The notes beneath the pieces were generated by a model. The model was not told the DNA's origin and did no database searches. It worked only from the letters and a program-made list of their open reading frames with translations. From Bacteroidales bacterium Bact_13 (lineage in GTDB: Bacteria > Bacteroidota > Bacteroidia > Bacteroidales > UBA932), in contig LUZE01000161.1 in NCBI GenBank assembly GCA_001602845.1, forward strand, positions 1-49,841: a DNA stretch of 49,841 nucleotides, written 5' to 3'. Positions 9,477 to 15,400 of this stretch are shown here, one piece after another (the first letter of the stretch is position 1; every line of letters begins with the position of its first letter). A program made the position numbers and the translations under genes.

Positions 9477-9484
9477 ATTGTTTG

Positions 9485-9520
9485 GTCGACGTGAAAGAAT
9501 CCCTCAATTTTTTCACGTCG
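9485..9520. repeat. Hairpin C1
   Basis: CGACGTGAAA (9487-9496) / TTTCACGTCG (9511-9520), 14-nt loop. Confidence 0.7.
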
Positions 9521-9557
9521 CCAGGCAATATCGGTCACAAAGATCCATTTTCCCCGG

Positions 9558-9595
9558 GTCGACGTGAAAGAACGGCTAAAATCTTTCACGTCGAC
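9558..9595. repeat. Hairpin C2, direct duplicate of C1 at 73-bp spacing
   Basis: GTCGACGTGAAAGA (9558-9571) / TCTTTCACGTCGAC (9582-9595), perfect 14-bp stem. Confidence 0.75.
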
Positions 9596-9612
9596 GGACA
9601 AGTCGTTTTATT

Positions 9613-9644: not shown

Positions 9645-9678
9645 TAAAAAGATTGAGGAGATTAGTACGAAAAGTAAG

Positions 9679-9916: not shown

Positions 9917-10273
9917 ATGGATTTTTTGGAATATAAAGGATATAAAGGCTCTGTGGAATATAGCCTTCAAGATGACTGCCTGCATGGGAAAGTACAGGGA
10001 ATCCGCAAGGCGTTGATCTTGTATGAGGGTCGTACGCTCGACGAACTCCGGCAGGATTTTCAGGAAGGTGTCGATTCCTATCTGGAAGCTTGCATAGCGG
10101 ATGGTGTAGAACCGGAAAAGCCATATAGTGGTAGACTAAATCTCCGGATGACTTCGGAAATCCATGCACAAGTTGCCGCTCGGGCAGCCGCCAACGGATA
10201 TACTATCAACGAGTATATCAATACAGCTATTGTCCGGTTGTTACAGGAAGATCAAGCCCCCTACGGTAAGTAA
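9917..10273 (+). CDS. hicB: HicB-family antitoxin
   Basis: YKGSVEYSLQDDCLHGKVQGIRKALILYEGRTLDELRQDFQEGVDSYLEAC plus C-terminal RHH-like region; adjacent to hicA. Confidence 0.88.
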   Translation: MDFLEYKGYKGSVEYSLQDDCLHGKVQGIRKALILYEGRTLDELRQDFQEGVDSYLEACIADGVEPEKPYSGRLNLRMTSEIHAQVAARAAANGYTINEYINTAIVRLLQEDQAPYGK

Positions 10274-10310
10274 ACTTCTTTCTCCATAAACTTCGCTTCG
10301 CACCAGCCGT

Positions 10311-10457
10311 GGGGTTTTCCTCGGCAGGCGCTGCGGGACCTTCTTTATCCCGCAGCGTCCTGACGGGAGAAAACCCCTGCAACGGCCTCTTTCTTTGTTT
10401 ATTCCCAAGATTTTTGATATCTTTGGAAAACCCGCCAAAAATTGACTGCCATGCGAC
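10311..10457 (+). repeat. Duplicated RHS expression module, copy 1 (hairpin + promoter + start codon)
   Basis: 147 bp, identical to 11812-11957 except for one 1-bp deletion; contains stem CGCTGCGGGA/TCCCGCAGCG and TTTG-N20-TATCTTTG, ends ATGCGAC. Confidence 0.95.
10394..10425 (+). promoter_or_regulatory. Bacteroidetes promoter TTTG-N20-TATCTTTG in module copy 1
   Basis: TTTG 10394-10397, TATCTTTG 10418-10425, ATG at 10451. Confidence 0.7.
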
Positions 10458-10609
10458 CGCTTCACCTGCCTGCCCGGATCATCCTTCTCTTCCTATCTTT
10501 TCTGTCCTTTTCCTTTTCCGCCTCCGCCCAGGAAGCCATATCCCTGGACAAGGTGAACTACATCGCCCTGTCGCCGGAGGCGGCGGCCCTGCACGAAAGG
10601 ACAATTTGA
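10451..10609 (+). pseudogene. 5' remnant of a secreted RHS-repeat protein (52 codons, then stop)
   Basis: MRPLHLPARIILLFLSFLSFSFSASAQEAISLDKVNYIALSPEAAALHERTI*: signal peptide plus a segment like Bacteroidetes RHS N-termini; below the supplied ORF length cutoff. Confidence 0.6.
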
Positions 10610-10760
10610 TTTTATCCGTAAGGAGATTATGCTGCAAAGATTGGGATATGGATTTTTTAAGAATAATTCAGATATCAGTAAAAATGGAAATCTGATAAAT
10701 CATGCATTATATCAATGGTATTGGGAGAAGGTTCCTGGCACAACGGTTCGTAGTTTTTAG
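10599..10760 (+). pseudogene. Open, start-less frame encoding a probable C-terminal tail of an RHS tip/toxin domain
   Basis: GQFDFIRKEIMLQRLGYGFFKNNSDISKNGNLINHALYQWYWEKVPGTTVRSF*, +1 frame relative to the RHS 5' remnant, AT-rich. Confidence 0.45.
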
Positions 10761-11202
10761 CTTCTTTATTCTTTGTAATTGCTTAGTTATCCTATTTTCT
10801 TGTGGCAGAAATAGGGATAATACAAAGACATTTTATTATGATCCTATAGTATGTGATACTGTGTATTTGCTAGTTGAAGAAATGCCTGTTTATAAAAGTG
10901 GGGAAATTGATTTTATTTCGGACTTTATTAAGGGGCTTCAGTATAATTATACACCAGATGACGACCTGCAAACCACTTTTCATGTCAAGTTTGTTATCGA
11001 TAAAATAGGCAGACTAGTGAACCCGGAAATAGAAGGAAAGACACACGATGAGTTAACCCCGCTAGATAGCGCATGTATTAATTCTTTGTCGACGTTGCAA
11101 AACTGGTCGTATGGAAAAAATGAAGGAGTCCCTGTAAATGTCTTGTGTAAAAGGTTAATAAGGGTGGATTTTAGTAGCAATGCTAATGATTACCCGTTAT
11201 GA
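10702..11202 (+). CDS. Putative lipoprotein with TonB C-terminal-like domain; candidate immunity protein
   Basis: Lipobox-like VILFSC; TFHVKFVIDKIGRLVNPEIEG...LSTLQNWSYGKNEGVPVNVLCKRLIRVDF resembles the TonB_C pattern; overlaps the 3' end of the toxin-tail frame. Confidence 0.55.
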   Translation: MHYINGIGRRFLAQRFVVFSFFILCNCLVILFSCGRNRDNTKTFYYDPIVCDTVYLLVEEMPVYKSGEIDFISDFIKGLQYNYTPDDDLQTTFHVKFVIDKIGRLVNPEIEGKTHDELTPLDSACINSLSTLQNWSYGKNEGVPVNVLCKRLIRVDFSSNANDYPL

Positions 11203-11678
11203 GCGGAACGAACAAGTTGTCGAAAGTAACGGTGGGCGGAGTCCAAAAATCGTATGCTTACAATGCCGACGGCACAATGAAGACCGACGGCCTCAGGGGG
11301 CTGACGGTCGCCTACAACCCGCTCAAGCTGCCGAACAAGATCAAGGTATCGTCCAACACCGGCACCGTGGACTACATCTACGACGCCCTTAGAAACAAGC
11401 TGGCAGTCAAGCAGGGCGGAACGCTGAAGAACGTCTACTGTGGCGACTTTGTGTACAAGAGCGGCATGGCCGTCGATTACATCCTGACGCCGAACGGCCA
11501 GATGACGAGAGATGCCGGCACGGGGACGTACACGGCGCAATACGACATCACGGACCATCTGGGGAGCGTAAGGGTCGTCGTCGATGACGGCGGCACCGTC
11601 CTGCAAACGACGGACTACTATCCTTTCGGCCTTGCGTTCAGATTTATCTTATATATTGGCCACAGAATGGCCAGATAA
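11199..11678 (+). pseudogene. RHS core fragment (core C-terminal part, truncated after DYYPFG)
   Basis: YNADGTMKTDGLRGLTVAYNPLKLPNKI...VDYIYDALRNKLAVKQGG...YDITDHLGSVRVVVDDGGTVLQTTDYYPFGLAF; diverges abruptly to AT-rich sequence. Confidence 0.85.
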
Positions 11679-11701
11679 AGTCTGTTGTTCATTTTGTGGC
11701 C
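11658..11701 (+). repeat. Hairpin D1
   Basis: GGCCACAGAATG (11658-11669) / CATTTTGTGGCC (11690-11701), fully paired with one G-U. Confidence 0.7.
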
Positions 11702-11729
11702 GGATTTCGGCTGAAAACCCATGTTTTGC

Positions 11730-11773
11730 AGCCATAGGATGAACCAGACGGCGCACTTGTTCATCCTGTGGCT
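11730..11773 (+). repeat. Hairpin D2, diverged duplicate of D1
   Basis: AGCCATAGGATGAAC (11730-11744) / GTTCATCCTGTGGCT (11759-11773), one U-G pair. Confidence 0.75.
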
Positions 11774-11811
11774 ATCGTTGGCACGCCCCTCGCCGTTCGC
11801 AGTCACGCCGC

Positions 11812-11957
11812 GGGGTTTTCCTCGGCAGGCGCTGCGGGACCTTCTTTATCCCGCAGCGTCCTGACGGGAGAAAACCCCTGCAACGGCCTCTTTCTTTGTT
11901 TATTCCCAAGATTTTTATATCTTTGGAAAACCCGCCAAAAATTGACTGCCATGCGAC
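11812..11957 (+). repeat. Duplicated RHS expression module, copy 2
   Basis: 146 bp, one 1-bp deletion relative to 10311-10457; TTTG (11895-11898) - N19 - TATCTTTG (11918-11925); ends ATGCGAC. Confidence 0.95.
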
Positions 11958-12334
11958 AGCAATACAACATCACGGACTATACGAGACCACTCTTTGTTTA
12001 TTTGTTGTTTTGCGCTATTGCTTGTTGTACTCCGCAGGTTCCTCAAGTATCAACATCAACATATTGCTATTTGGATAATAGCAACGATACGGCTCGTGTT
12101 TGTGTATTCTCTATTATGAATAGCTCGAAAGAGGACTATTATACTTGGATTGATTTTGATTGCCTGAATTCGTCTAATGACAAAACAGAAATAAAACGTT
12201 TTTTTTTAAGAAGAATCGGTGATTTCTCCTTATTATCTCTTTGGTCAGATAATGTCATTTTGTCTTCACCGATTATTTTTCAGGTAGGTAAGAATTTCCT
12301 GAAAAGAATAGGCCCTGGTGATACTTTTAAATAG
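11951..12334 (+). CDS. Orphan putative lipoprotein, chimeric N-terminus on the RHS start codon; candidate immunity protein
   Basis: MRQQYNITDYTRPLFVYLLFCAIACCTPQ...; lipobox-like AIAC; AT-rich; follows module copy 2 directly. Confidence 0.5.
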   Translation: MRQQYNITDYTRPLFVYLLFCAIACCTPQVPQVSTSTYCYLDNSNDTARVCVFSIMNSSKEDYYTWIDFDCLNSSNDKTEIKRFFLRRIGDFSLLSLWSDNVILSSPIIFQVGKNFLKRIGPGDTFK

Positions 12335-12439
12335 ACCTTTGTTATTGACAAAGGACAGACGGCGCCGGCCACGAGGTTTTTTTGGGCGTTCCGGAATTTT
12401 TCGGTAACTTGCTTTGCTTTTCAACCCCTTGCCTGGCCT

Positions 12440-15400
12440 ATGTCATTCGTCCATCTGCACGTCCATACGCAATACTCTATCCTTGACGGTCTTTCCGATA
12501 TCGAGACGCTTTTCGCGCGTGCGCGGGAACTGGAAATGCCGGCCCTGGCCATCACTGACCACGGCAACATGTACGGCGTGAAGGAGTTCTTCAAGTTCGC
12601 CTACGACAAGAAAAACCTGGACGAGAACAAGCAGCCCATCGTCAAGCCCATCATCGGGTGTGAGGTGTATGTGACCCGGCACTACGACAACCGGCTCAAG
12701 GACAACGACCACCGCCGGTACTACCACCTCATCTTGCTGGCCAAGAACCTTGAGGGTTACAAGAACCTGATGAAGATCTGCACGGAAGGGCATATCAACG
12801 GGTACTATTACAAGCCCCGCGTCACCCACGAATTCATCGAACGGTACCACGAGAACCTGATCTGCTGCTCCGCCTGCCTGGCCGGGGAGATCCCCCGTGA
12901 CATCCTGGACGGCAACATTGAGGCCGCCCGCGAAGCCATCCGCTGGCACAAGCGCGTCTTCGGGGAGGACTACTACCTCGAAGTGATGTGCCACAAGACC
13001 GAAGTGCCAGGGCTCGACGACGATGTGTACCGGGCGCAGATGACGGTGAATCCCGTCATCTTCGACCTCGCCCGGGAAGAAGGCGTGAAAGTGGTGGCCA
13101 CCAACGACGTACACTTCATCCACCGAGAGGACGGCCCGGCCCACGACCGCCTCATCTGCCTGACCACCAACTCCGACATCGACGATCCGAAACGGCTCCG
13201 CTACACCCAGCAGGAGTTCCTCAAGACCGAAGAGGAAATGGCGGCACTTTTCCCGGACCATCCGGAAGTGCTCGCCAACACGCTGGAAGTGGCCGCCAAG
13301 GTGGAGACCTACAAGATCGACCACGACTACATCCTCCCGAAATATCATATCGACGAAGCGTTCCTGCGCGACATCGACCACCATCTCGAACAGTACAAAG
13401 CCTATATCGACGCCGGCAAGAATGACCCGAAGGGGCACTACCGCGGCGACGACTTCTGCAAGTCCGTAGCCTACCTCTGCTATCTCACGTTCGAAGGCGC
13501 AAGGATCCGCTACGGCGAGACCCTGACCGACGAACAGGCCGAACGCATCGATTTCGAGCTGAAGACCATTTCGTCGATGGGCTTCCCCGACTATTTCCTC
13601 ATCGTCCAGGACTATATCCGCGCCATGCGGAAGCAGGGCTGGCTCGTGGGCCCGGGACGCGGTTCGGCCGCCGGGAGCGTGGTGGCCTACTGCCTGTGGA
13701 TCACCAACCTCGACCCGATCAAGTACCAGCTCCTGTTCGAGCGCTTCCTCAACCCGGAACGCATCTCGATGCCCGATATCGACGTGGACTTCGAGAACCT
13801 CGAGGCGGCGCACCGGTACGTCGAGGACACTTACGGCGCCGACCATGTCTCGCGCGTCATCACGTTCGGCACGATGCTGGCCAAGGGCGCGATCAAGGAC
13901 GTCGCGCGCATCAGCCACGTGTCCATCGACGAGTCGAACCGCCTCTCGAAGATGGTCCCGCCGCGCCTGAGCGAACGCGTGAAGAACGACAAGGGGCAGA
14001 TGGAAGAGAAAAACGTGAAGATCACGCTCAAGAACTGCTACCGCCTGGTTCCGGAGTTCAAGGAAGAGCTCGCCAAGGACAACAACGACCTCAACAAGGA
14101 GGTGCTCGAGTATGCCGAGCAACTGGAAGGCAGCATCCGACAGGTCGGCATGCACGCCTGCGCCACCATCATCGGCCCCGGCAATCTGAGCGACTATATC
14201 CCGATCTGCCTGTCGAAGGACAAGGACACAGGCCTCGACGTATGGACCTCGCAGTATGACGGCCACTACATCGAGGAGTGCGGCCTGCTGAAGATGGACT
14301 TTCTGGGGCTCAACACCCTGTCGATCATCCACAAGACGCTCGACCTGATCAAGGAGGGACACGGCGTGGATATCGACATCGAGGCCATCCCCATCGACGA
14401 CAAGGCTACCTATGAACTCTACGGCCGCGGCGATACCACCTCGGTGTTCCAGTTCGAGTCGCCGGGCATGAAGGAGTGGCTGCAGAAACTGCAGCCGGAG
14501 CGGTTCGAGGACCTGATCGCAATGAACGCACTGTACCGGCCGGGGCCGATGGACTACATTCCTGATTTCGTAGACCGCAAGCAGGGGCTGAAGCCCATTA
14601 CCTACGACACGCCGGAGATGGAGGAATACCTGAAGGACACCTACGGCATCACGGTGTACCAGGAGCAGGTGATGCTTCTGTCCCAGAAACTGGCCGGATT
14701 CACCAAGGGGCAGGCAGACAAGCTCCGCAAGGCGATGGGCAAGAAGAAGATCAAGGACATGGAGGAGCTCTATGTCAAGTTCATGGAGGGCGGCCATGCG
14801 CACGGGCACGACGACATGCTGCTGAACAAGATCTGGCAGGACTGGCGGGCCTTTGCGGAATACGCGTTCAACAAGTCGCACGCCACCTGCTACGCCTGGG
14901 TGAGCTACCAGACCGCCTACCTGAAGGCCCACTATCCGGCCGAGTTCTTCGCCGCCAACATGAGCTGCAACCTCAACGACATGGAGGAGATCACCAAGAT
15001 CATGGACGACTGCCGCCGCTGGCGCATCCAGGTGCTGGGACCCGATGTCAACGAGAGTGCCACGGAGTTTACGGTCAACAAGGCGGGCAATATCCGTTTC
15101 GGCATGGGCGGCATCAAGGGCGTGGGCGCCAATGTCATCGACGCCGTGATCGCCGAGCGCCGCCGGGGCGGTCCGTTCGAGAGCGTGTTCGACTTCCTGG
15201 AGCGCATGCCGCAGGGCGTGATCAACCGGAAGGTGATGGAATGCCTCATCTATTCCGGCGCCTTCGACGGATTCAAGGACATCTCCCGGCCGCAATATTT
15301 CTTCGAGACGGGCAAGGACGAGAACTATGTGGACGCCCTGCTCCGCTACGCATCACGGTTCCAGAGCGACACGATCTCCTCGGGCGGGAGCCTGTTCGGG

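Follow-up and report, generated by a model that had tools for sequence, protein, structure and literature searches.

The roughly 2.1-kb interval between hicB and dnaE in the window, a stretch of 49,841 nucleotides from contig C161 of Bacteroidales bacterium Bact_13, is probably a tandem RHS cassette locus that collapsed and left immunity genes behind RHS-type promoters. It is bounded by an intact hicB (9917-10273) on the left and by dnaE, which begins at 12440, on the right, and holds RHS remains together with two lipoprotein genes. Every element listed in the original prediction is present, in the place given there or a few bases away from it. Along the forward strand, a first copy of a promoter module (10306-10440) is followed by an RHS leader ORF (10451-10609, with its TGA at 10607-10609), an AT-rich segment of 142 bp with 32% GC (10599-10740), the gene for lipoprotein 1 (10702-11202), an RHS core fragment (11199-11678), a partly palindromic spacer (11642-11806), a second module copy (11807-11941) and the gene for lipoprotein 2 (11951-12334). 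Base composition alternates sharply along this series, with 58-59% GC in the leader and core, as in the rest of the window, versus 32-36% in the tail and lipoprotein genes. The source assembly comprises 2.1 Mb at 92% completeness; all assemblies compared are drafts, and E-values of genome searches were reckoned per genome.

The two RHS pieces match parts of one and the same protein. Residues encoded by the leader at 10451-10597, comprising a signal peptide and about 49 codons as had been proposed, match the first 49 residues of an RHS frame in genome G023, open over 2054 codons, at 67% identity, and homology to intact RHS stops at about 10597. The core fragment, expected to end at the DYYPFG hallmark, is 84% identical over 11202-11641 to the core of that 2054-codon protein and closes with DYYPFGLAF, with no tip after it. 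The 49-codon leader and a 147-aa core fragment are thus what remains of the gene, and a search for other RHS cores in the 92%-complete source genome found none. At least one RHS core occurs in 15 of the 40 congeners, the source genome being counted among them. In G010, G003 and G017, tandem core-tip-immunity cassettes are present, and fusions of the leader to late core recur. Mini-RHS genes also occur (L047:10614-12119, L046:4963-5979 and L179:61-1035), in which a signal peptide or leader is joined straight to late or associated core plus tip, without the long repeat body.

The 135-bp repeat at 10306-10440 recurs at 11807-11941, confirming the predicted second copy of the RHS module. The two copies are 98% identical over 155 bp, in a match that reaches the start codon, and the duplication must therefore be recent or have been homogenised. 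The first 75-80 bp or so of the module (about 10306-10386 in copy 1) form a hairpin of -55.8 kcal/mol (z -7.4), followed by a perfect Bacteroidetes-type promoter, TTTG-N20-TAnnTTTG at 10394-10425 in copy 1 and TTTG-N19-TAnnTTTG at 11895-11925 in copy 2. The window has three such perfect promoters where shuffling predicts 0.05, the third being located upstream of hicA. The whole 135-bp module was considered as an RHS-specific element and dropped as such on account of its hairpin half, a general dispersed repeat with about 10 further sites in the genome, mostly adjoining unrelated genes. Only the promoter half sets the module apart: the two window copies have it, and a diverged version precedes a third lipoprotein gene, on contig C130. 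The product of that gene (G000:C130:15387-16096, L093:7388-8100), which lies downstream of the module copy and its promoter, is a 181-aa lipoprotein; RHS-linked relatives of it were sought and none was found, nor does any RHS lie nearby.

The hicA side of the left flank has features of its own. Upstream of hicA, at 9484-9601, lie two 45-nt direct copies, each palindromic (GTCGACGTGAAAGAA...TTTCACGTCG). At 9664 the hicA-like gene reads ATT where its homolog in G028 has an ATG start, and it is possibly another weakened toxin beside a kept antitoxin, hicB.

The family of lipoprotein 2 is tied to RHS toxins by gene position. In congeners, its relatives are full-length, toxin-free genes between housekeeping genes, with dN/dS values of 0.23-0.39 in three congeners, and this context suggested a plain housekeeping-linked lipoprotein. 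That reading was overturned by an order-wide search with a profile built from the congener relatives, which was positive in 10 of the 393 genomes of the order: outside the genus, family members overlap the end of an RHS tip by 4 bp at five loci, drawn from four genomes (G053, G298, G037 and, with two loci, G232). The homologs are thus not confined to settings without RHS, and the RHS link proposed for this gene stands. The window protein belongs to the same family by homology as well, matching the tip-adjacent proteins with phmmer E-values down to 4e-15. The tips that precede the family members themselves belong to a single family, with identities of about 45-73% across 220 residues, and share an invariant S-H-E-x-x-G-H (mostly HEANGH) followed further on by a conserved histidine; judged by this motif, they are compatible with a putative zinc peptidase. 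Two of the tips were checked against NCBIfam, and both match the Rhs_assc_core model. Structure prediction for a tip (pLDDT 68) yielded no significant PDB match and was too weak to use.

In the window, lipoprotein 2 is incomplete. It has 127 residues, compared with 166-180 in the family (about 168), and lacks about 40 C-terminal residues, about a quarter of the family length; its stop codon, TAG at 12332-12334, is followed by a few seemingly homologous residues and then by dnaE upstream sequence. The opposite end is a fusion. The first codons are those of the RHS start region, ATGCGAC, and continue in frame into a piece of RHS core, 'QYNITD' (11959-11976), before the immunity-family lipoprotein proper. 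This 18-nt scrap lies within the first 10 codons and is identical to RHS core at 17 of 18 positions, a match obtained in 0 of 300 shuffles. This gene is probably in decay.

Lipoprotein 1 (166 aa, lipobox ..LFSC) has kept more of its sequence. Its DNA homology is confined to 10741-11188: the native start has been lost or replaced, a 1-nt deletion immediately ahead of the native stop alters the last residues, and a homologous frame of 145 codons is retained. Between the window and G033, dN/dS is 0.23 for lipoprotein 1, a value that integrates the entire divergence, the period before the collapse included; it is 0.10 for dnaE and likewise 0.23 for the toxin-less core fragment. Purifying selection has acted on lipoprotein 1, or else on the genes from which it recently descends.

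The relatives of lipoprotein 1 fall into near and remote groups. Homologs with 78% identity occur in two congeners, G033 and G036, inside toxin-free lipoprotein arrays; the two genes are identical and count as one observation. One array member is 93% identical to the gene immediately behind the RHS gene in G036:C5, and array members share 36% identity with a gene directly behind a G003 tip and 54% with one directly behind a G017 tip. Further out, a distant homolog in G054 (28% identity) directly follows an RHS tip with a HELLH motif, and a homolog in G306 (profile E 1.5e-29) lies just past a tip-immunity pair, within a region of RHS cassettes. No intact locus came to light in which a close homolog of lipoprotein 1 is accompanied by its tip. 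The expectation that homologs of lipoprotein 1 would keep RHS company therefore holds for the nearest relatives, which lie in arrays of genes related to RHS-immunity genes, and fails for most remote TonB_C hits. Near the latter RHS markers are rare, at a frequency that we took as the background rate, and nearly all generic TonB_C loci examined are free of an RHS marker within 1.5 kb. The resemblance of lipoprotein 1 to TonB_C is itself distant and below the Pfam cut-off, as the window protein gave no hit to PF03544 (TonB C-terminal domain) at E up to 1 and the G033 homolog scored 14.8, short of the gathering cut-off of 24.6. A structure prediction for lipoprotein 1 (pLDDT 41) was too weak to use and had no significant PDB match, and profile searches of PDB sequences returned nothing.

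The arrays of G033 and G036 (L042 4000-13400 and L043 4783-13900) contain many orphan lipoprotein genes separated by repeated intergenic sequence, and look like a true polyimmunity locus. The L042 array includes two copies of a 204-aa outer-membrane-like protein. In the window, the spacer at 11642-11806 contains palindromic GGCCACAGAATG-type sequence with weak similarity to the repeats of the G033 array (E 0.045).

A separate question is whether the AT-rich segment before lipoprotein 1 encodes the C-terminus of a toxin, as the original prediction held. Its 53-aa open frame ('GQFDFIRKEIML...') lies directly before lipoprotein 1 and overlaps it, an arrangement like that of intact tip-immunity pairs, and openness and position are what speak for a true tip with lipoprotein 1 as its cognate immunity protein. 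Against this, no search made recovered a homolog, neither in the 40 congeners nor in the 393 Bacteroidales, and the matches obtained were chance-like and to unrelated proteins. The frame is open in 2.8% of shuffles when the reading frame is given and in 8% when any of the three is allowed, and it may be open by chance. Moreover, the tail sequence is missing upstream of the 78% homologs of lipoprotein 1. For these reasons we did not count the tail as a toxin remnant, and we regard its being a tip as unlikely.

With lipoprotein 2 short by a quarter and the start and C-terminus of lipoprotein 1 changed, both proteins may be inactive. A pure graveyard, that is, a pseudogene scar with non-functional lipoproteins and silent or irrelevant promoters, has the same history as a collapsed cassette locus and differs from it on present function only. 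The early TAG in lipoprotein 2, the missing native start and the 1-nt deletion of lipoprotein 1, the headless core, and a leader that is short and ends in TGA would all fit such a scar, which we consider a serious possibility, somewhat short of even. What argues against it is the 145-codon homologous frame of lipoprotein 1 with its dN/dS of 0.23, the perfection of both promoters in nearly identical module copies, the in-frame fusion of lipoprotein 2 to the RHS start codon, and the conservation of toxin-free homologs in relatives. Lipoprotein 1 may still protect, and of the two it is the likelier to be a working orphan immunity protein, albeit a putative one. Of the orphan immunity array originally envisaged, one plausible immunity gene is left, the other being truncated. 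Since the ends of both genes are altered and lipoprotein 2 is cut short, the interval is better termed a decayed locus. The central proposal, that immunity-type lipoproteins were kept behind RHS-type promoters as the core and tips were deleted, came through the tests posed against it; the toxin part assigned to the tail found no support.

The same site differs among relatives. G028 has an empty site: there dnaE comes straight after hicAB, and the two blocks homologous to the window are about 60 bp apart. In G017, the hicB-dnaE gap is filled by one reverse-oriented lipoprotein gene, whose product shares 64% identity with a protein of the G033 array, the same array in which the lipoprotein 1 homolog lies. 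These differing contents, together with a third module copy before the C130 lipoprotein where no RHS is near, would be expected if the module and the gap were capturing immunity cassettes singly behind a ready promoter, as a polyimmunity-type locus in the making rather than one old RHS locus that collapsed. Such active assembly seems improbable to us, as the pieces of core and leader lying between the lipoproteins suggest decay in place, the C130 lipoprotein lacks an RHS-linked homolog, the hairpin part of the module recurs as a general repeat, and a recombinase was not recognised nearby. Only tentatively do we suggest that immunity genes are captured again and again at the RHS promoter and start region, with the hicB-dnaE gap as a recurrent cassette site. 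Were this true, recombination in RHS loci would repeatedly fuse immunity genes to a duplicated RHS promoter, in one case in frame with the RHS start codon, and cells losing the weapon would switch to RHS-controlled defence.

That ordinary envelope proteins came by chance to neighbour RHS debris, lipoprotein 1 being a TonB-like partner, we strongly disfavour: lipoprotein 1 does resemble TonB_C, with most of its remote hits unlinked to RHS, and congener homologs of lipoprotein 2 do lie among housekeeping genes, but the five overlapping tip-immunity pairs in the lipoprotein 2 family, the array or tip context of the nearest lipoprotein 1 relatives, and the near-total lack of RHS markers at the generic TonB_C loci examined all speak against it.

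Under the preferred reading of a collapsed cassette locus, the ancestor would have consisted of leader and core, a tip and an immunity gene, followed by more core-tip-immunity cassettes, as in related genomes. Deletions would have taken the toxin-bearing parts, and two immunity-family lipoproteins would have stayed, each behind an RHS-type promoter module, with a short core piece linking the second, in frame, to the RHS start codon. We infer that the two lipoproteins would be expressed and protect the cell: exported and anchored in the envelope, they would bind incoming tips of their own family, putatively metallopeptidase-like as judged by motif, that neighbours with an intact system deliver.

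Orphan immunity is believed to influence how gut and environmental Bacteroidales compete, and the T6SS immunities are mostly the ones that have been followed. In Enterobacteriaceae, orphan rhs-CT/rhsI modules keep the toxin tip with its immunity gene (PMC3967940, PMC3150448), and experiments in Salmonella have shown main and orphan rhs parts recombining with each other (PMC3967940). The hicB-dnaE interval resembles these modules in that RHS fragments and immunity genes are left next to a main rhs gene or away from it, and in recombination among repeated core parts, but it is devoid of tips and retains only immunity-family genes, each behind a promoter copy. In Vibrio cholerae, T6SS immunity arrays arise by effector displacement, the immunity gene being kept after its effector is lost or replaced (PMC5361080). 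Here too immunity genes outlast the effector; the Vibrio arrays, however, follow an effector module that is still live, whereas the source genome yielded no live RHS gene and the promoter is duplicated. Heterogeneous polyimmunity loci, including those of Bacteroides, place several unrelated, toxin-free immunity families side by side, in tandem, in the same orientation and uninterrupted by toxin parts (PMC3482391). The G033 and G036 arrays fit this description well, and the interval shares with it unrelated immunity families without toxin genes; in contrast, it has two genes only, with RHS core debris between them and separate promoters. The AID clusters of Bacteroidales (PMC10470768, PMC12247911) also gather orphan immunity genes, directed against T6SS effectors and, in AID/rAID systems, often accompanied by a recombinase, whereas the lipoprotein families described here are tied to RHS tips rather than to T6SS effectors, and no recombinase was present among the neighbouring genes examined.

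The locus is thus a fresh example of a known phenomenon, immunity outliving the weapon, and not an unprecedented one. Its value lies in catching an intermediate step, in which an RHS toxin locus has been cut down to promoter and immunity genes at a site that is empty or otherwise filled in relatives. Two lipoprotein families that bear no Pfam or NCBIfam name are now linked to RHS tips with metallopeptidase-like motifs, and these links constitute putative toxin-immunity pairs that are directly testable.
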